IMG/VR virus record: IMGVR_UViG_3300046170_000318
Location: 1-29,740 of that record
Length of the DNA stretch: 29,740 bases
Origin: a virus
Direction: 5' to 3' (one strand)
Shown: positions 1 to 11,853 of the stretch, piece after piece
How the letters are laid out: the number at the start of each line of letters is the position of its first letter
How positions within the stretch are numbered: the first letter of the stretch is position 1
The notes under the pieces: generated by a model
The model's database searches: none
Told to the model about the DNA's origin: nothing
Seen by the model: only the letters and a program-made list of their open reading frames with translations
Program-made: the position numbers and the translations under genes

Positions 1-38
1 CTCCTGGCTGGTCGCCACTAAATTGGTAATATTAACAG

Positions 39-67
39 TTGACCTAGTAGCGATATTGGGTCATAAT
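39..67 (+). promoter_or_regulatory. early promoter 1 with dyad operator-like site
   Basis: A -35 box TTGACC (39-44) and a -10 box CATAAT (62-67) are separated by exactly 17 bases, a good sigma70-type arrangement. An inverted pair TGACC (40-44) and GGTCA (59-63) lies across the promoter core. Over 30 bases it matches the second promoter at 1285-1313 at 25 positions. It sits 45 bases upstream of the first early gene. A repressor or activator binding the dyad is inferred, not shown. Confidence 0.75.
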
Positions 68-111
68 GTCTCTGTTGTTTGAGTGAAGTCAATTTTAACC
101 AGGAGAACGTA

Positions 112-357
112 ATGGCGAGCAAGCAAAAACTCATTGATGCGGTGGCGGCCCTTGGCGGCGCCATCGACTGGGGTGTCTCTTTCATCGAGCGAGGCGAAAA
201 GCACATCTGCATCGACGCGCCGGCCGGCATGGTCTGGTCTGCGAACGGGGCGCCCTGCCTAGTCCAGTCCTGGTACAGCGGCACCGCCAGTGAATTTTAT
301 GATGACGTGTTGGCCGACCTGGCTGACGGTCTAAACCAGGGGGAGCAAGATGACTAA
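112..357 (+). CDS. small early protein, unknown function
   Basis: This is an 81-aa soluble acidic protein that I do not recognise. The start ATG at 112 is chosen because AGGAG lies 8 bases upstream; an in-frame extension to 79 has no ribosome site and would overlap the promoter leader. The protein has two tryptophan-containing stretches, including a W-S-A-N-G turn near the middle, and an acidic C-terminus ending in EQDD. It is the first gene after early promoter 1 and overlaps the next gene by 8 bases, so they are probably translationally coupled. Its position suggests immediate-early expression and a host-interaction role, but nothing in the sequence shows a function. Confidence 0.7.
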   Translation: MASKQKLIDAVAALGGAIDWGVSFIERGEKHICIDAPAGMVWSANGAPCLVQSWYSGTASEFYDDVLADLADGLNQGEQDD

Positions 358-613
358 GACGGAACAACGCAAACAGCTCCGAGAGATTGCCAAAAATTTG
401 AGATGGGATCACAAGGTGGAGCTGTTCATAGTCGAGCGCCAGGGCGGAGATGTTTGGCCCTACCCCATCGCAAAGGCGCCGCTAATCACCGGCACTGAAT
501 ATGACTGTTACCTGGTCGGATACAGGCGGGAGGGATTTGGGGACAACGCCCACTTCTGGACTGAGGACAGTATCAGTCTCAAGTTAACCAGTAACGGAAT
601 CGTCGCCGTGTAG
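350..613 (+). CDS. small early protein, unknown function
   Basis: This 87-aa protein begins inside the end of the preceding gene (8-base overlap). GGGGAG a few bases upstream serves as ribosome site. The N-terminus (about residues 1-20) is a charged helix rich in Lys, Arg and Gln. The remainder looks like a small beta-rich domain with several aromatic residues. There is no signal peptide or membrane segment. The function is unknown. It belongs to the early block under promoter 1, and its size and overlap are typical of phage early accessory genes. Confidence 0.65.
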   Translation: MTKTEQRKQLREIAKNLRWDHKVELFIVERQGGDVWPYPIAKAPLITGTEYDCYLVGYRREGFGDNAHFWTEDSISLKLTSNGIVAV

Positions 614-636
614 GCGACACAACCAGGGAGAGTGAA

Positions 637-885
637 ATGATCGATAAAGCAATTAAGGGTAATTACTACTGGACTCATCGCGGAAGCCACAAAAGATATT
701 TTCCTGGCGCGGAAGTCATCAAGGTGTTTGCAAAAACAGGCGGTAAAGAATTCCCGCTTTGCACTGAGCGCCAGGGCGAGATGGCCCACCCGACCAGCAC
801 CGGTTCTTTGTTTGAAACTTATGAAGCGGCTGTTGAATACAGCGAGCTCCAAAAAAGACTTAGTGAGGAGAATAAAAATGGTTGA
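637..885 (+). CDS. small early protein, unknown function
   Basis: This is an 82-aa protein. The start at 637 follows the leader AACCAGGGAGAG, a version of a leader repeated before two other early genes. The N-terminal half is basic and aromatic (YYWTHRG at about residues 10-16). The C-terminal part is a charged helix rich in Glu and Lys. No known domain is recognised. It overlaps the following membrane-protein gene by 8 bases, which suggests coupled translation. Confidence 0.65.
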   Translation: MIDKAIKGNYYWTHRGSHKRYFPGAEVIKVFAKTGGKEFPLCTERQGEMAHPTSTGSLFETYEAAVEYSELQKRLSEENKNG

Positions 886-1096
886 AGTAATTGTTGGGTT
901 AGCGTTATTGCCTTTCGCAATCTTGGTTGCGATTTACCTGGGCGCGCTCGCAATCGGCGCGGTCTGGATTCTTGGCGGGCTCATCCTTTTGTTGTGCGGC
1001 ATTTTTCTGGCCGTCAACGGAGTCAACCCAGGCGGATTTATTTGCATGTTATTTGGTGGCGCCTGGTGCGCCTATAGTTGGGGAGTAGTGAAGTGA
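878..1096 (+). CDS. small membrane protein
   Basis: This is a 72-aa very hydrophobic protein. Start ATG 878 is preceded by GAGGAG. Two strong membrane segments lie at about residues 4-24 and 26-46, and a third weaker hydrophobic stretch at about 53-68. There is almost no soluble part. It overlaps the previous gene by 8 bases and the next by 4 (GTGA). A holin is possible from size and topology, but its place in the early block and the lack of an adjacent lysin argue against that. An inner-membrane host-takeover or exclusion protein is equally possible. The membrane location is clear; the role is not. Confidence 0.65.
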   Translation: MVEVIVGLALLPFAILVAIYLGALAIGAVWILGGLILLLCGIFLAVNGVNPGGFICMLFGGAWCAYSWGVVK

Positions 1097-1260
1097 CAGA
1101 TGAAATTAACAAAGCGGCCCAGGCGCTCAGCCTATCCAGGACAGAGCAAACGCTGGAGTGCCAGGAGTGCGGCAAAGAGTTTAAAGCCAGGGACGTGCGG
1201 GCCCGCTTCTGCACTGATCGATGCCGGCAGATTGTGCGGCGCCGAAACGCCAAAAAATAA
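1093..1260 (+). CDS. small zinc-ribbon protein
   Basis: This is a 55-aa protein with GTG start 1093 overlapping the upstream stop as GTGA and preceded by GGGGAG. Four cysteines are arranged C-x2-C-x13-C-x3-C (CQEC near residue 23, then CTDRC), with a basic tail (RRRNAKK). This is the pattern of a treble-clef or zinc-ribbon fold that could bind nucleic acid or a protein partner. It is the last gene before the second promoter. I infer a regulator or host-polymerase binder among other possibilities. The metal site is supported by sequence; the function is not. Confidence 0.65.
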   Translation: MTDEINKAAQALSLSRTEQTLECQECGKEFKARDVRARFCTDRCRQIVRRRNAKK

Positions 1261-1284
1261 TTTGAAATTAATTGATAAAAACAC

Positions 1285-1313
1285 TTGACCTCGTATCGAT
1301 AATAGGTCATAGT
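1285..1313 (+). promoter_or_regulatory. early promoter 2 with near-perfect dyad
   Basis: TTGACC (1285-1290) and CATAGT (1308-1313) are separated by 17 bases. The region from 1286 to 1309 is a 24-bp dyad: TGACCT on the left, AGGTCA on the right, and the self-complementary ATCGAT exactly at the centre (1295-1300). It resembles promoter 1 and is followed 31 bases later by the YodL-type gene. The dyad spans the spacer and touches both promoter boxes, so a bound dimer would be expected to block polymerase. That control is inferred. Confidence 0.75.
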
Positions 1314-1344
1314 GGCTTCATTGTTACTAACCAGGGGAAAAAAA

Positions 1345-1647
1345 ATGATCAAGATTTATCACGCCAACAAAGAAATTTTCAGCGACTCAGTTTGGTACGG
1401 CTACAGCATGGGCTTGAGTATGGAAGAGATCATCGTCAAGTTTCAGAACGGCGAGTATTTTGAAGCTGGTCAAATTGACACTAACGATCTTGAGCAGGCT
1501 TATCACCTCAGTCAAAACCTGTGCGCACGGCCCAAAGGGTGGGAAGGTCGATCAACTTCAGTCGGCGACATCATCGAGAATGATGATGGGATTTGGATCG
1601 TCGCCAACGCAGGTTTCGACCAAATCAAAATCAAGGCGGCCGCATAA
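1345..1647 (+). CDS. YodL-domain protein
   Basis: This is a 100-aa protein starting at ATG 1345 after the leader AACCAGGGGA. Residues about 45-95 fit the YodL domain: LEQAYHLSQN, then W, then RSTSVGDII, then a short strand and a GFDQI ending. In the known family this domain is found in Firmicute mobile elements and phages, and among domains of large polyvalent proteins; its biochemical role is not established. Here it stands alone as the first gene under promoter 2, next to an LPD29-like gene. The domain call is from motif recognition. An anti-defence or host-modulating role is inference only. Confidence 0.7.
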   Translation: MIKIYHANKEIFSDSVWYGYSMGLSMEEIIVKFQNGEYFEAGQIDTNDLEQAYHLSQNLCARPKGWEGRSTSVGDIIENDDGIWIVANAGFDQIKIKAAA

Positions 1648-1672
1648 CGCGGCCATTACAAGGAGAGTAAAA

Positions 1673-2148
1673 ATGGCAAAGCAAATGAGTGAAAACGCAA
1701 GAGCGGCAAAGATGGTACGCCAGGAGCTAAAGCTCGCGGCATCAAGGGTCGCGTAACGAGCCGTCAGTACAGCATGGGCTCAAGTATGGACGTGGTTATT
1801 CTGGAGGATGTGAACCCAGAAATTTATGAGTCGGTTAGAGAGTACGCACGTCAGTTTCAGTATGGTCACTTTGACGGTATGCAGGACCTGTATGAGTACA
1901 GCAACAGCCGCGATGACATACCCCAGGTAAAGCACGTTTTTACCAGCATCGAGTACAGCGATGAGCTCAAGCAACGAGTTTGGAATTACATTCGCAACGT
2001 GTACGCAAATATGGAAGATGCGCCAGAACTGCTAGAAGAGTCTTATAACTTCTACAGCAAGCACTGGGGCGCCAGCGCCATTGGCCTGGTCAACCGTATT
2101 TTGTTTGATTCTAATGATGTCGCCTGGAATGGAGGTCTCCAGGCGTGA
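1673..2148 (+). CDS. LPD29-like small protein (frame break near 1738)
   Basis: Read directly this is a 27-aa peptide (1673-1756) followed by an unconnected frame. Restoring one missing base near 1735-1742 joins them into about 158 aa. The joined protein shows I-K-G-R-V-T-S and YSMGSSMDV, then FDGMQDLYEY, which match my recollection of the large-polyvalent-protein-associated domain LPD29. The start has AGGAG 8 bases upstream. It follows the YodL-type gene in the same transcript. LPD domains were described in phage and element proteins delivered into cells; here the domain is a stand-alone early gene. The function is unknown. Confidence 0.6.
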
Positions 2149-2170
2149 TATACTTTCACCGGAGGTTGTT

Positions 2171-2330
2171 ATGGAATTCGTTATCTTTCTTTACTGCCTG
2201 GTGGCCGCTGTCGGCGCTTACCAGATCCTGGTGCCTTACCAGTACCTGCCCGCTTACACTCCTGAAGAGCTTAGAGCGTATTGCTTACTGGGATGACATC
2301 ATCGCCAACTCAAGCTCAGAGGATAGCTAG
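2171..2330 (+). CDS. small single-span membrane protein (probable frame break near 2270)
   Basis: ATG 2171 is preceded by GGAGGT. The N-terminus carries one hydrophobic segment (about residues 3-22), followed by a Tyr/Pro-rich link. As read, the frame stops at 2296 after 41 aa. Removing one base near 2265-2272 gives 52 aa with a helical ERIAYWDDIIAN ending and a stop at 2330. I prefer the longer form but am not certain. The stop overlaps the stop of the convergent minus-strand gene at 2327. The function is unknown. Confidence 0.5.
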
Positions 2331-3475
2331 ATAGTCAAACCTGGCACCGCGTCCAGGATACCGCTATTCATTAGGACCGGCTTCAGGCCCTTCGCGGGTA
2401 CTTCCGGTCCGTTTGCTACCTGAGATATTCCATCAAATAACCCGTTTTGATTTGACTTCAAGACGCCAAACGTGTCGATAGCGCCCTGGGCGTCTTTATT
2501 GAATATGTCAACGGGGATGTGTCGCCCCGTACCTGCTGACCGTAAAAGCATTCGCTTACCGGCCTCTTCCGCTGAAACATCCATATTTAATAGCTGAACG
2601 TCATAACCCTTCGCCCTGAGCTGTTCAGCCGTCTTTAAGACATTATCGGGGTTTGACCCTATCCGCGGTATCACTAGGTTGTAACGGTCCCTCATGAGCT
2701 CCTCCTGGAGCTGTTCCGTCATTACTTTGGACTGCGGATGTACCGCATTGGCGCCCATCCCGTCAGCAAATCCTGGAAGCATCTTTTTAGCCTCATCAGG
2801 ATCAACAATGGCCGCGTTGTATTGCCTGGCTATTGGATTGGCCACAGAGCTCTTTCCTGCCGCCGCCGCCCCCGTTACCAGGATCGCCCTGGGCTTTTCA
2901 CCTTTAGCCACCGGCTTAGCGGCGCCCTCTAGGCCATCATCCGCCCAGCCTAGTCTGGTGGCGCCCTGGTAAAAATCTTCCTGGAGCTTTGGCCTGTTGG
3001 CGATTTGGTCCACCGGCAATGGCGCGTAGTCACTGCTGGTAACAATGCTCTCGCGATGCTTTACCAGGGGAGTGCCTGCGGCCTCTCTGAAGCTTTTGCC
3101 CTCGTTATCGAACATGTGCCGCATTTCATCTTTCATGTGCTGGGCGGGGTCTGGGCTCTGATACCAGCGGTTCATTGTCCCGATCTTATCCAGCGCCTGG
3201 CCTGCAACCTTGGCCGGCCCTACTGGCACACCCACGTCCAGGGCGGCGCCTGCGGCCTGTCCTGGCGACATCGTGCCGTGATACGCAAAGTTATTAAGCG
3301 CATCATCCAGGCTGTTGGGGTACACCCAGCTCGCTATAGAGCCGTCCACGGCCCTCTCGCCTGCATTAAGGGCTTCGGCCACCTTTGCCATCCACGGGTG
3401 CCTGGGGCCCATTACGGAGCTCTCAGGGGCCCTTGCCTTTGGTTTGTTGCTTGCCGCCGCGTCTAGGATACCCAT
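2327..3475 (-). CDS. zeta-toxin-like P-loop kinase domain protein
   Basis: This is a 382-aa protein, intact in this sequence. Residues about 195-330 resemble the zeta toxin / AAA_33 kinase fold. Strand PRAILVTG leads into Walker A GAAAAGKSS (202-210, with Lys208). D-P-D follows at 225-227 where zeta has its catalytic Asp, then a MLPGF motif, VHPQS, and an R-x3-R plus GR pattern (308-318) like the family's phosphate-binding arginines. Zeta/PezT enzymes phosphorylate UDP-N-acetylglucosamine; the substrate here is not shown. Residues 1-190 are a separate Ala/Gly-rich region of the kind seen in virion-ejected proteins. It overlaps the upstream gene as TAATG and lies beyond the capsid terminator. 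No epsilon-type antitoxin is visible. It could be an injected effector or a housekeeping kinase. Confidence 0.7.
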   Translation of the reverse strand: MGILDAAASNKPKARAPESSVMGPRHPWMAKVAEALNAGERAVDGSIASWVYPNSLDDALNNFAYHGTMSPGQAAGAALDVGVPVGPAKVAGQALDKIGTMNRWYQSPDPAQHMKDEMRHMFDNEGKSFREAAGTPLVKHRESIVTSSDYAPLPVDQIANRPKLQEDFYQGATRLGWADDGLEGAAKPVAKGEKPRAILVTGAAAAGKSSVANPIARQYNAAIVDPDEAKKMLPGFADGMGANAVHPQSKVMTEQLQEELMRDRYNLVIPRIGSNPDNVLKTAEQLRAKGYDVQLLNMDVSAEEAGKRMLLRSAGTGRHIPVDIFNKDAQGAIDTFGVLKSNQNGLFDGISQVANGPEVPAKGLKPVLMNSGILDAVPGLTI

Positions 3476-3764
3476 TAGATTCTGAATTTCTCGTAATCGC
3501 CGCTGTTGAGCTCGATCTGGACAATGCTATCAAAGGCTTCATCGTCCTGGCGAACTCCCCACTTGTTACTCCACACCTGCTCTAAAAAAGGCGGGTAAGC
3601 ATATTGAGGTTCGCTAATCTTCTCGCCCATGAAATTAAAAATTTTCCAGTAGCTTCGCGCTTGTGCCGTAAATAAGTGGCCTGGTCCAGGTAGGGATTAG
3701 GATCGTGCTTTTCAATATGTAAAAGCTTCCCATCCTGTACTTCAAAAGATTCACCGATTTTCAT
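3475..3764 (-). CDS. small late protein, unknown (frame break near 3640)
   Basis: The start ATG 3764 is chosen for the upstream AGAGGTG. The frame as read stops at 3582, but adding one base in the A/T run at 3636-3645 continues it to a TAA that overlaps the ATG of the kinase gene, giving 96 aa. The repaired protein has an acidic centre and a C-terminal half containing FLEQVWSNKWGVRQDDEAFD. I do not recognise the family. The overlap with the kinase gene (TAATG) ties the two together as a small two-gene unit downstream of the terminator, so a partner or regulator of the kinase is conceivable. Confidence 0.55.
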
Positions 3765-3823: not shown

Positions 3824-4834
3824 TTACTTGGTGTATGTCGCCATGTGACCACTTGATGCCTCATTATGAGCCACCAGTGTATGCTCGCCCACGATATGGC
3901 CGTGCATTGAATCACCGGTTTTAGCGAGAGTCTCTTGCTTCCAGCCGCGCAGTGTTGCGACTTTCCACTTCTTTGACTCCAGGACATACAAAGACCCAGC
4001 AGGCATAAAGCGATCAGGTACAAACGTGATCAAGCCCCAGGGCGTTTGGTAGCGAACCATTGAGTTAACCACCTTCTCTTCGGTTGCCATGATGTTGCCA
4101 CGCTGGTTGTTGTTGCCTTCCAGCTCTGCGACCGCCGCAGACATTAAATCCGCTCGCAAATATACGCGATCGGGCTCTCCGCCTTCGGTCCATAACGTTT
4201 CCAGGAGCTGATCAAAATCACCCTGGGTAAACGATGCACCAGTGCCAGCAACAAAACCGCCTGAGCCGTCACCAGCAGTGGGGAAAGTAGCATCGCCAAC
4301 CGTGTTGGTGGCCATCCAGCCGCCTACACCACACATAATGCGAGGCGTAGAACCAGAACCAGCGTCACGGCCCTGAGTACCCAAAAGAGCAACCTCCAGG
4401 TCACGCTTGAGCTCTTTACCTTTCTGCAAAGCCTGGTAAGCGTATTCCTTATTTCGGCCTGCCGTTGTGACACTTTGGACAGTGCCCGACACGCGGAAAC
4501 CACGCTTTCCAATTTGGGTGTAGTTTCCGATTCGCTCAGTCTTGTTGAACTCAGCACCGGAATCAGCACCTTCGATGTGAGCGTTAATCTCAGCATCCTG
4601 GAGCGCTGTTGTCTGCCATTCAGTGTACGTGTTCTTAGCAGACTCTTTGCCACACTTTGTATAAAAAGGTGTCTCTGTGGGCGAAATATCAGAAATAATA
4701 TCTGACAATTGCTCGCGGATACCAGTAACGAAACTCTCATCAGGGTATCCAGGACGGTTTAAATCACTTCCGTAAGTGGAAGCCGTGATTACCGGAGCAG
4801 TGTTACCTGATCCGTCAATTGCTCGATTACTCAT
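3824..4834 (-). CDS. major capsid protein (DUF5309/SU10-like)
   Basis: This 336-aa protein forms the icosahedral shell. The sequence has the family's order of landmarks. Near residue 45 the DIISDISPTETPF motif appears. Next come EWQTTALQDAE, an NYTQIGKRGFRVSGTVQ segment and KGKELKRDLEVALLG. After that there is a central Gly-rich loop region, TPWGLITFVPDRF, and finally LAKTGDS with IVGEHTLVAHNEA near the C-terminus. ATG 4834 is chosen over an upstream TTG because GGAG lies 8 bases before it. The gene is intact. It follows the scaffold gene across a short AT-rich leader and is followed by a strong terminator, fitting very high expression. Confidence 0.92.
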   Translation of the reverse strand: MSNRAIDGSGNTAPVITASTYGSDLNRPGYPDESFVTGIREQLSDIISDISPTETPFYTKCGKESAKNTYTEWQTTALQDAEINAHIEGADSGAEFNKTERIGNYTQIGKRGFRVSGTVQSVTTAGRNKEYAYQALQKGKELKRDLEVALLGTQGRDAGSGSTPRIMCGVGGWMATNTVGDATFPTAGDGSGGFVAGTGASFTQGDFDQLLETLWTEGGEPDRVYLRADLMSAAVAELEGNNNQRGNIMATEEKVVNSMVRYQTPWGLITFVPDRFMPAGSLYVLESKKWKVATLRGWKQETLAKTGDSMHGHIVGEHTLVAHNEASSGHMATYTK

Positions 4835-4854
4835 AAATTTCTCCAATTAAACTA

Positions 4855-6316: not shown

Positions 6317-8389
6317 TTATTGTCCCGTCCCTTGTCTTGGCGCGTTAATTTTCGCATATAAACTAGCTTCATCAAGAGCCAATTTATTGTCTAGCTTCGC
6401 GCCCTCAAGGGCAATTTTAGCGTCAAGCTCATCCCGCTTTAGATCACGGTCGAGCGCGTCCTGGCCAAACTGGGCTTGTAGCTTGCCCATCTCTATTTGG
6501 CCCTTCTGTTGTAGCTCAGCCTGCTTGATCTGTTGCTGAGCCTGGGCCTTGACCTGCTCCGCCTGGACTAATGCCTGGCTTGGGTCGCCCTGTTGTTGTG
6601 CGGCCGCTTGTTGTTGCTGGGCCATTTGCATCAATTGCTGTTCTTTCTGATCATCAATTGGCTGGAAATACCTGTCCGCATTCTGGACGCCAGCCATTCT
6701 CAATAGGTCCGTTATGGTGTTGACCAATTCTTTTGGTCCAACAATGCCGTTAGTGAGCCCGAACTGGGCAACAACCTTTTCTTGGGCCAGCATGGCCTGC
6801 TGTAGCGCCATCATCTTTTGTTGCTCATTACCCGTACCCAGCCCCACGTTAACCTGGGTGTCCATTCTACATGTCCCAGGTTGTTGGATCGAACTGCACA
6901 AAATCAGTGCCTGAGACCTTTTGCATCATTTCATCAGTAGCATTCTCAATAACGAGCTTGAGAATCCGCTTAAACATCGCTGTGACGCCCCCCTCTGCCA
7001 GGTTACGGGCCATTAACTCCAATGTGGCGTTATTGGCTGAGACCATCGCATTGGCCGCTGTGGCGCTACTGTTGGCCTTCAGGGCGTCAGGGTTTAGACC
7101 GTTAGACGCTGAGTTAACGCCGGTCTTGGCCTCACAATTACGATCCAGGTAATTCAGAGCCTCCAGGGTCTGACCCGCGACAAACGGAATAACTAGCGGT
7201 TGTACAGAGCCCATTTGTTTAGACCGGACAATGCCGCCAATTTCATTATTCAAAATGTCAGATACGTTGGTCGCACCATCAAGTATTTCCAGGCGCGGAT
7301 TATTCACCAGGGCGGTGTTGTCTAAGATACCCCTAAGCACAACCGTAGAGCTGTCTTGCTCCGCAAAAAGCACGTCGGCAATAGACTGGCCAAAGAATGC
7401 GTGAGGGAATGGGATCAGAGCAGAATGAAACAAACGGCACGTCATCCCAAGGGCTCATGGGAAAGCATCTTGTACTTACTGCCGCCCATCAAGAACTTAT
7501 AGGGCTGGGGTATGCCCGTACCCTCAACGTCAACCTTCATATAACATTCTGTGACCATGACAGGCCTAGTCGATGGGTCCGTACCCTCTCGCTCGTCATC
7601 GTAATGAGTGCGTTCAAATTGCTCGTTTTCGGCCTCTCCGTCCAGGCCATCAAGCCCTTCTAATTCAGACCATTTAAAGCCCATTTCCACCAGGTCACCA
7701 ATAGTCTTTTCAGTGCGCTGGCCAATGATGTAAGCATCCTCTACACAACTGGCGCCGGCATCAACAAAGAACTGCTCGGGGGGGATAGACTCTAATTTGA
7801 TCTCACCAGACTGAATGGTTTTTACCAGCTTAATATCGTGAGCCTGCATTAACTGATCGCCGCCGACTATCTCCTGGGTTGTATGCTCCAGGACCTCAAG
7901 CTCTGGGTCTGACGCAATCATTGCCAGCTCTTCATCGGTCAGATTGGCGTACTCAATAATTTCCTGCTTTTCTTCTGGATCAAAGTAGATTTTAGCGATG
8001 CCGTTTTTATGTAATAACGAATCGTGAAAAACGTCCTGGAGTAGCTTATAGCCGCCCTGCTTGTTAAATACGATCTGACAGTATTCAGAGGCGTTTTCCG
8101 CCGCCTGGGCTTGCTGGGGATTTGCCCCCTGGAACTCAACAGGCTTTTCCGATTGCAGGAATACCCGCATCAGGCTGGGTTTGATCTGCCTAATGGTGTC
8201 TCTGATCTTTGTGGCGACAATCTTGGACCGGCCGCGCTCATGGCCAATGTCACATTTGCCCTCGTAGTAACGCATCGCTCTCTCACGATCTGGGGCAATG
8301 CTGGTCTCAACGTAGCCAACAGCTTCCTCAATAGCCGTTCTCACGATATTGCGGATCTCTGTATCTGCTAACGGCTTGGGCTTATTCAT
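6317..8389 (-). CDS. portal protein (three frame breaks)
   Basis: The dodecameric portal is the DNA gate at the capsid vertex. As read the gene falls into three pieces (8389-7442, about 7445-6867, about 6901-6317). Removing one base each at 7446-7448, 7405-7407 and 6869 gives a continuous 689-aa protein, normal for the SU10/P22-like family. Landmarks run in order: RDTIRQIKPSLMRVF, VFHDSLLHKNGIAKIYFD, ESIPPEQFFVDAGA, the joined PHAFFGQSIAD, and the joined TWDM-RMDTQVNVGLGTGN. A long Gln/Ala-rich coiled barrel forms the C-terminus. The start overlaps the upstream gene by 8 bases. The breaks are most likely sequencing errors. Confidence 0.88.
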
Positions 8390-10437
8390 AAGATAATAGT
8401 CCTTCTATATCGAGCGCATTTTTAACTTTCTGCTCGTTTAATAACTGCAATGATTTTGCCTGGTCCGCGTCACCAACTGCCTTAGCGGCCCTGCCCGCAA
8501 ACGTTGACCCAATCATTGGCGCCCTGCCAACTACATCCATTACAGCCTTTAATTTGGTGTTACCAGACTGAGAATAGTTTGCGCTATTGCCGTATGGCAT
8601 GGTGTTAATTGTTTCGCCAACTTCGGCAATGTCTCGCAATTCCTGGGCCTTCTGTTTCCCATAAAGAGCTTCAAGCTTTCCAGACCGGTCAAGTTTATCT
8701 ATCTCGGTCTTAAATGCTCGCGCATTGAACTCGCCAGGCTTGCCCTTTTGCGCCGTATTCACCAGGTCCATCATTACCCGTTGCCCCAGGGTGTGAATGA
8801 GCTCCACCCCATTGGGCACCTTTGCCGCCATTCGCAACAGGCGCTTTACATCGGCAATTGGGGCGTTTTTGATCTTTGAATAAACTTGCTCATCAGCAGT
8901 AGATGGGGACTGTGTGCGGCCCTTCTTACCCGTTAATTGCGTTACCAGAGCGTTGCCATCAGTCTCGGTTTTATTCCTGGCGTATGCCGCTCTGGCGCGC
9001 TTGTATGCCGCGGCTGAGTCGGGGACGTTATCCAGAGACTTATCAACGGCTTTCTTTAAAATTTTGGCCATTGCTTTGTGATTAGGGTTTAAGGGGTCTT
9101 TTAAAACTCGATTTATCTGGATGCGGAATTTCTCAACATCATTAATGGTGGCCATTCGCCCATTGGAAACGCCAATTTCATCTGCCATATCTTTCAGCAT
9201 CTTGAATTCGCCGCCTTGGACCTTGTTGTAAAACCCAGCCTCTAGCTCTCTAAAAGCGGCGTCTAACCCGTTAACCCTGATCGGGGTATCCATTGCCCCC
9301 TGCTCTCTGGCTATATCGTAAAGGGCCGTCTGTCTTTTCCTTATTAGCCTTTGCTCGCGCCGCCAGGGTAGTTTTTACTTTGCGCCCCAGGGCCTCATCG
9401 CTATCCAGGTCCATCCAGTTAGCGCGTGGCGCTTCCTGCTGATCTAGGTTTTGCTGTAAAAGCCGCTGTTGATCGCGCTGGAACTGTGCCAGCGGCGCCC
9501 CCGTTTTGGGGTCCTGCCTGGGAATGTTGTATTCATCTGACATTTGCGCGGCGTTGCGAGTAGCTTGTCCCTGGGTCAAAGGGATAGGCGTGGGTAAGTT
9601 TTGCGCCGTTGCAACCCTCTGCCTGGCGCCCTCAACCTGGGCGGCGCCGGCTGACAGGTCATCCACATCTGGCTCAGCCTCAATGGATGATAAGAGCGTG
9701 GGCGCTATTCTGCTTTTGCGCTCTTGCTCTGCCTTATCTGCCGCCTTAGACGCCTGCCTGGCCTCATACTTGGCCGCGATTGGAGCCTTTGCGGCGTCAT
9801 AAATCTCGCCACCCGCAGACTTTGCAATTCTAAGACCCATATTACCCATGCCGCCGGTAGCGACACCCGCCGCGGCTTCAGGTCCCAGGGATGCCAGAAT
9901 GCCCGCTAAGGGCGCCGCTGGAGCTAGTGGGGTCTCTTTAAGGTAATCGTTAGTATTCTGGCCCCAGGACTCTGCCGTGCTGTCTAGCCAGTTAAATATG
10001 GGCTGGTCAAATGCCTCGCCAACCTTGCCAATCATTCGCTCGCCGCTCGCGGACCTGGGCGCAACCGTTAGATCGCTAGAGAGCTGATTCTGGGCCGCCT
10101 TAGCTGTTTCATAGTCCTCACCCGTAACAGAGCCATAAAGCCCCCTGGCAAGCCCTGCTAGGCCACCCCCAACGCTAGAACCTATCGTATCAAGCGTTTC
10201 CTGGAAAGGTCTGTCTCCCGTCTTTGCTGACTCCTGAAACGAATCTGTCAATGCCCCCAACCACGAATTTGACTCTGGGGGAGAAGCGGCCTCTACCCCA
10301 GGCAAAGGTCTCCACTCACCGCCAACCAGCCCGACCTGGGCACCAGAATCCGGATTCGTTGCAACCTTCAAAGGCACCCACTGCCCATTTTCAAGAATCA
10401 GGCGCTCACCTGTTGTGGGGTTATGTGCTACTTCCAT
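8382..10437 (-). CDS. large internal/ejection-type protein (one frame break)
   Basis: Two pieces (10437-9271 and 9293-8382) join when one base is removed in the A run at 9320-9322, giving 684 aa. Residues 1-50 carry two tandem short repeats of the pattern N-P-x-T/S-G...G-x-W-x-P-L. A Gly/Ala-rich, partly hydrophobic region follows (about 85-210), then Lys/Gln-rich long helices to the end. The size, composition and position next to other ejection genes and the portal suggest a DNA-ejection or internal virion protein. No lysozyme motif is seen. The role is inferred from context. Confidence 0.65.
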
Positions 10438-10447
10438 TTAAATAACC

Positions 10448-11363
10448 TCAAAGTTGAAAGCCATCGGGAAGCGGCGGGATGTTCGCATCGTTACGCCAGG
10501 GCATATCCCTGGGCTGATAAAACTCGCTATTAAAAACGTCGTCGTATCTGCCACTTCCCAGCTCGGAATTATAGTCCTCAATAGTCCTTTCTTTATCTCT
10601 AATTAATCGACGTAAAAGCTCAGAGTAAGCTTGCGGCGTCATACTCTCAAGACCACCGAATGCCTCGAGCAATCGATTGTATTCAGCAGGCGTATCCATT
10701 CCCCTGGCACCTAGTCCAGATTGCTTAAACCAATTCATAACCCGCCGCGCTGATCCAGCTCTCAGTAACTGGTCTCTTGTTGCGCCGCTTAAATCGGTAT
10801 TGTATTCCTCACCCAATTCCGCCTGTATTGCATTAAACATTTTCTCGATTGGGGCAAACAATCCTTCAGCTCTGGCTGGGTCCATAGACAGCGCCAGCTC
10901 TTCCTCCAATAGCGGTATCTGTCTGGCTGAGTCTTTAGCATTCTGTGATAGTTTTGCAATCTTCTCAGAATCACTTGATGCAACGTCCGACGCGGATGTA
11001 GAACTGTAGGTGCCCGCTATCGCATCCTCTGACGAAATAACAGTTTCCAGTGACCCATCAGCCCGTCTAACCTGGACTGAGCCATCAGTGCCCTTAATGA
11101 TCTTATCGCCACGCTGAACGCCCAGAAATGCTTTTTGCTCATCATCACTAAGACCTTCAAAATACTCGTAATTACGGATGGCCGCAGTATCGTCCGGCGC
11201 CGGTAGCCTTCCTAAACTTAGACTGCATCGCGAGCTTCATATACTCACCGCGCTGACTAGGCGGCAACTTGGTCATGACGCGAAACATCTCTGGGTTGTT
11301 CTCAGCCAGATATTTCATGGTCTTGTTGTCTTCCATGCCCTGCATTCCGACCTTCATCAGCAT
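10448..11363 (-). CDS. helical virion/ejection-cluster protein (one frame break)
   Basis: Pieces 11363-11172 and 10909-10448 join through an open stretch once one base near 11194 is removed; the whole is 304 aa without other stops. The junction yields TAAIRNYEYFEGLSDDEQ followed by KAFLGVQR, a segment I associate with many phage internal proteins (an N-Y-E-x-F/L-x2-L-S-x2-E-Q pattern). The C-terminal half is a charged helical region. It starts one base after the upstream stop and lies 10 bases before the next gene. An ejection or structural role is inferred. Confidence 0.65.
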
Positions 11364-11364
11364 G

Positions 11365-11853
11365 TCATTTGTGCCCTTTCATGCCAGAATTACCACGCAA
11401 GGTCATATTGCCAAAGCCGTTGCTTGCCGCGGCCAGCATCATGCCCAGGCGGTTTTTATCTTTGTACCACTTTTGATCGATCCAGGCGGGAGCCTTTTCC
11501 CTCTCAGGGACACCAATTTGATTGGCCAGCATTCCCTCAACGCCGTTTTCCTGGAGCTGGTCCCTGGGTGGCCCTTGCAGTCGATCGGCGCCCGCGCCCA
11601 GGTCACCCAGCAAATGCTTGGGAGGTCCTGCAACTTCTGGCGGTCCCATCGGCGGACCTGGAGGACCCATCTGGTAGGGAACGTTTCCAGGCGGCCGCTG
11701 GAGGCCAGGCATCATTGGGGTCTCGCTCATAGCATTAACCGGCGGTTGCTGGCCACCCGCGTTAGTCGGCTGGGGCATATAAGGCGGAGTAGCCCCTGGA
11801 GGGGACCCGCCCTGATTGCCCATTAGCTGGCCAATTATTTCCATTAAGCCCAT
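11365..11853 (-). CDS. proline-rich protein in ejection cluster
   Basis: This 162-aa protein has a Pro/Gly-rich, probably disordered N-terminal two-thirds (PPG and MGPP clusters at about residues 15-85). A short charged C-terminal segment follows, ending in MTLRGNSGMKGHK. It starts 2 bases after the S74-protein stop and ends 1 base before the next gene. The low-complexity sequence, the neighbours and the intact frame suggest a minor virion protein ejected with DNA. I recognise no domain. Confidence 0.6.
   Translation of the reverse strand: MGLMEIIGQLMGNQGGSPPGATPPYMPQPTNAGGQQPPVNAMSETPMMPGLQRPPGNVPYQMGPPGPPMGPPEVAGPPKHLLGDLGAGADRLQGPPRDQLQENGVEGMLANQIGVPEREKAPAWIDQKWYKDKNRLGMMLAAASNGFGNMTLRGNSGMKGHK

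Follow-up and report, generated by a model that had tools for sequence, protein, structure and literature searches.

The window, that is, the whole stretch of 29,740 bases analysed here, is an IMG/VR fragment from a virus of bacteria. Most of it is taken up by a minus-strand late operon, with the terminase at the right end followed by tail, structural and portal genes, to which the major capsid protein gene (3824-4846) belongs. Small plus-strand genes, convergent with this operon, fill the first 2.3 kb. A megablast of the whole window against phages found no DNA-level match to isolate phages, and the capsid is at most 43% identical to theirs. Searching bacterial genomes with the capsid returned distant Zymomonas prophages only, and no host was therefore assigned. 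A minus-strand gene for a Zeta-toxin-domain protein (2327-3475; PF06414, 6.6e-24) occupies the operon's far end; its slot is filled by different proteins in relatives and looks like a variable cargo position. A near-identical contig from a different sample, IMGVR_UViG_3300048026_000700 (locus coordinates prefixed L021), extends further left and is the same phage in the late genes, with a 100% identical capsid. Genes that are split in the window (1673-2148, 6317-8389, 8382-10437 and 10448-11853) are single open frames in that contig, which points to small insertion/deletion errors in the window record, such as one base missing near 1731. The phage is best read as a temperate podovirus.

Two promoter-like elements precede the small plus-strand genes. 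The first, at 39-67 on the plus strand, consists of TTGACC (39-44), a 17-base spacer and CATAAT (62-67). The first gene behind it (112-357, plus strand) encodes an 81-aa protein with no family match, its start codon lying 44 bases after the -10 hexamer, and the rest of the cassette (350-1260, plus strand) comprises genes at 350-613, 637-885, 878-1096 and 1093-1260. The gene at 350-613 is missing from IMGVR_UViG_3300048026_000700, and that at 1093-1260 encodes a 55-aa zinc-finger-like protein with weak HNH/DksA-type matches. The second element, at 1285-1313 on the plus strand, consists of TTGACC (1285-1290), a 17-base spacer and CATAGT (1308-1313), and is followed on the same strand by a YodL-like gene of 100 aa (1345-1647) and by the frameshifted counterpart (1673-2148, with the base missing near 1731) of a 158-aa gene at L021:3613-4089. 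The twin elements reported in the preliminary description are real, since positions 39-68 and 1285-1314, one base past the ends given there, agree at 25 of 30 bases. This is the best same-strand pair of 30-mers in window positions 1-2330, and the maximum reached in 400 dinucleotide shuffles was 23. The reported -35/-10 pairs are likewise present in both elements, with sigma70-type hexamers scoring 10/12 and 9/12; a general promoter scan of the window is at chance (4 found, 2.7 expected). We infer from these hexamers that both elements are host-sigma70 promoters.

Each element is overlapped by an operator-like dyad, to which no strand is assigned. Dyad 1 (TGACCTAGTAGCGATATTGGGTCA, 40-63) has 9/12 symmetric pairs and one arm mismatch, and dyad 2 (TGACCTCGTATCGATAATAGGTCA, 1286-1309) has 10/12 and contains TGACCT-N12-AGGTCA exactly, with ATCGAT at its centre, as originally described. 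Both span the -35 to -10 region, and thus overlap the RNA polymerase site, which bears out the earlier placement of the dyad over the core promoter. Both lie upstream of the predicted transcription start, and a terminator or RNA-structure role for the dyad was set aside for that reason. Taken singly, such a dyad is at chance in the window: one 24-mer with at least 10/12 symmetric pairs was found where 0.95 was expected, and there are six exact 6+6 dyads with N12. Among 60 loose 17-spaced promoters in the window, one carries a 22-bp dyad reaching 9/11 symmetric pairs. In the window, the pattern TGACCTNNTANCGNTANNNGGTCA, with as many as 3 mismatches allowed, matches at these two places only (0.06 expected). 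The dyad gains credibility from its repetition, the further copies elsewhere and a symmetric change of its arms in a relative.

IMGVR_UViG_3300048026_000700 carries four copies within 2.7 kb, at L021 positions 915, 1482, 2591 and 3550, and the window has two because its left end cuts the array off. The copy at 2591-2620 is identical to window 39-68 over 30 bases, and the copy at 3550 is the counterpart of the one at 1285. Each of the four sits in a gap, 30-60 bases before a gene start and shortly ahead of its ribosome site. The spacer between the hexamers is 17 bases in every copy and also in a relative whose capsid is 90% identical, within the 16-18 bases of sigma70-type promoters. With up to 3 mismatches allowed, no further site turns up in the remaining ~20 kb of this 24-kb contig. 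The copies together refine the site to TGACCTnnTAnCGnTAnnRGGTCA. Its centre varies among ATCGAT, ATCGGT and AGCGAT, and ATCGAT, which had been taken as part of the motif, is thus not conserved. Symmetry (9-10/12 pairs) and arms are conserved in 4/5 distinct copies, and the right arm AGGT, which lies inside the spacer, is kept as RGGT in 4/5 as well; sigma70 requires no sequence in this spacer. In the copy at L021:915 (GGCGGTTA) most of the right arm is gone but the -10 hexamer TAATAT persists, which shows that promoter can be separated from operator. Exact scans of IMG/VR with TTGACCTNNTANCGATANTNGGTCATA, TGACCTNNTANCGNTANNNGGTCA and ATAACANTANCGNTANTGTTAT found the motif in the two known lineages only, plus chance matches inside genes, there being two such in-gene sites outside its own lineage. 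Searches with the integrase and with a 160-aa cassette protein gave nothing new. Of the proposal that a pair of promoters co-controls two halves of an early block, the shared promoter-operator is supported, but the pair belongs to an array with four or more units. The genes may or may not be early; their position, with attP on one side and the convergent late operon on the other, is one for accessory genes.

The symmetric change is found in IMGVR_UViG_3300048003_000321 (site G002), whose capsid is ~90% identical to that of the window phage. At the matching locus, directly after the same zinc-finger-like gene, this relative has CACTTGCATAACAGTATCGGTATTGTTATAGTG, a TTGCAT-17-TATAGT promoter carrying the dyad ATAACAnTAnCGnTAnTGTTAT, which is the one among its 52 loose 17-spaced promoters to reach 9/11 symmetric pairs. 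The core TAnCGnTA is kept, and TGACCT..AGGTCA is replaced by ATAACA..TGTTAT, that is, both arms are changed symmetrically; the dyad centre is displaced by 2 bp relative to the hexamers. The change comes from a single site. A joint change of both halves is what a dimeric DNA-binding protein would impose upon a change of specificity. The preliminary description had allowed for either a phage-encoded regulator outside the window or a host one. The difference in arms among close relatives favours the phage-encoded one; unless the two phages have different hosts, the mirror change is hard to reconcile with a host regulator of fixed specificity.

Downstream of the zinc-finger gene, the element precedes a YodL-like gene in the window, a 158-aa LPD29-like gene in IMGVR_UViG_3300048026_000700 and a 160-aa gene in the 90% relative, the last being the gene behind the copy at L021:915; gene content therefore changes at the element. 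Compared pairwise, the copies are 21-29/30 identical over the 30-bp element. Their upstream flanks group 1285 with 915 and 3550 (26-30/30) and 39 with 1482 (20/30), and their downstream flanks group 915 with 1482 (24/30), the others being unrelated (7-14/30). The discordant flanks, together with three genes behind the same copy in three related phages, indicate that the operator marks joints between gene cassettes. A plus-strand GC hairpin at 1638-1653 spans the stop codon of a cassette gene, and hairpins of the same kind close other genes in relatives; GGCCGC-n-TAA-GCGGCC lies over stop codons at window 1638-1653, L021:1442-1456, L033:242-256 and L033:1589-1604, with fold z-scores of -2.8 to -4.1. 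Such hairpins are perhaps terminators or mRNA ends that insulate the cassettes. A tentative idea, which we consider rather doubtful, is that the promoter-operator unit acts as a plug-in socket, at which recombination between repeats would swap cargo genes, newcomers would come immediately under the prophage repressor, and a change of repressor specificity would be followed by a change of all sockets.

The setting of the array is that of a temperate phage. To its left in IMGVR_UViG_3300048026_000700 (L021:1-776) lie a tyrosine integrase gene, of which the 3' end is present (PHROG 1, 7e-35), and then, on the other strand at about 749-774, a stretch resembling a tRNA 3' end, which we take to be of the tRNA-Asp type; ARAGORN found no complete tRNA there. 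Integrase end and tRNA-like sequence likely mark attP. With the integrase of Bordetella phage BPP-1 this one shares 33% identity. In relatives, NinB- and NinG-like genes (assigned by eye from sequence; many relatives have them) stand beside the terminase at the right end of the sister phage, a Cro/YdaS-type gene stands beside the primase at locus L105 (P22_Cro 4e-9, YdaS 7e-24), and a CI-like gene, recognised by eye and with no Pfam match, stands opposite a Cro/YdaS-type gene at locus L130, with an integrase beyond. By these genes the layout is lambda-like, with attP on one side of the array and the late operon's end on the other. Since this region is severed from the integrase side in the prophage, its genes need promoters of their own. 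A walk toward the immunity region, by NinG and primase searches through relatives, met CI/Cro-like genes in relatives only, and no contig of the window phage's lineage spans the switch. In another sister phage (L007 and L056; IMGVR_UViG_3300047386_000448 and 3300047373_000550), the capsid is ~90% identical, the non-structural region is quite different, with apparent nucleotide-metabolism genes, and no integrase was seen, which suggests that this relative is virulent, its virion being almost identical.

We consider it probable that the elements form an array of sigma70 promoters, each overlapped by the operator of a phage-encoded dimeric repressor that would keep the genes off in the lysogen. 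The attP-side accessory region would contain at least four host-sigma70 promoters, with a 24-bp dyad operator over the -35 to -10 region of each. Their regulator would most likely be a dimeric helix-turn-helix repressor of the CI/Cro type, encoded by the phage in the missing genome segment between replication genes and integrase. Bound to the dyad, it would exclude RNA polymerase from the promoter, so that the scattered small-gene cassettes would be silent in the lysogen and be switched on jointly upon infection or induction. While the repeat, the dyad, the copies, their gene context, the absence of further sites and the symmetric arm change are observed directly, we infer sigma70 use, repression, regulator identity and timing from sequence. 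Against this reading, the homologue of the YodL-like gene in the L007 relative has no such dyad upstream, and in IMG/VR just two phage lineages carry the motif.

Since phages are known to borrow regulators from their hosts, the dyad could instead be the operator of a host protein, the phage genes then obeying a host signal. The restriction of the motif to promoters would fit this, as would the fact that no phage regulator was recovered in contigs of the window lineage. We nevertheless hold it to be unlikely, because the arms differ at the matching locus of two closely related phages, as expected of phage immunity systems, and because the exact motif in IMG/VR is limited to this lineage and two chance in-gene sites. 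We give similarly little credence to an account in which there is no operator at all, strong host-type promoters having been copied by recombination together with cassettes and the dyad being a by-product of a shared -35 and a chance right arm. The chance-level frequency of a lone dyad fits this account, and the long flanks that copies share pairwise point to common descent, so that the conservation could reflect recent copying. However, the 30-bp element is still 21-29/30 identical where flanks are down to 10-12/30, the right arm is kept though the promoter does not need it, and both arms are replaced in mirror fashion in the sister phage.

A podovirus with ~30-bp elements repeated before its genes also brings to mind promoters for a phage single-subunit RNA polymerase of the T7 type. 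This is very improbable given the sigma70 hexamers, their constant 17-base spacing and the dyad symmetry, and given that the sister phage's copy retains the hexamers with most other positions changed. Moreover, the replication and Nin genes of relatives are lambda-like, and a non-exhaustive look at translated relatives revealed no gene for an RNA polymerase.

Phage operators present at multiple sites, in accessory or early promoters, are a known kind of control, and the array we favour, of repressor-controlled promoters, is a further example. It resembles the CI/Cro operators of lambda in having a dyad over the -35/-10 region of sigma70 promoters and a lambda-like gene order in relatives, and differs in that single 24-bp dyads lie at scattered accessory promoters, in contrast to the triple 17-bp sites of the lambda switch. 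The repressor of the temperate phage phiC31 binds conserved inverted repeats dispersed over several of the phage's early promoters; the likeness lies in the dispersed dyad operators, but host and sequence differ, and the regulator of the window phage is only proposed. As in cluster A mycobacteriophages, many copies of one phage-repressor site would be spread across a temperate genome (PMC6550527). The stoperators of cluster A, 20-30 in each genome, are 13 bp long, one-directional and mostly outside promoters, and they block elongation, although some repressor sites are true operators inside promoters, and specificity drifts between relatives (PMC6550527). The window sites are not of this asymmetric type, each being a symmetric 24-bp dyad that is always on a core promoter, with four known copies in one block. 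Cluster K start-associated sequences are also repeated just upstream of many small phage genes; they are proposed to act at translation start, have an extended form with imperfect 17-bp inverted repeats and a variable spacer, and vary in consensus between subclusters (PMC3203893, PMC12699233). Unlike these, the window element has promoter hexamers in a fixed geometry, lies 30-60 bases upstream and does not resemble GGGATAGGAGCCC at the ribosome site.

The array would be a small regulon, amenable to testing, in a temperate phage lineage that is uncultured. In the symmetric arm change between the sister phages, nature seems to have recorded a shift of repressor specificity. The array also suggests how a phage could gain accessory genes and yet keep control of them, the shared operator serving at once as control site and as the joint where neighbouring genes differ from one relative to another.
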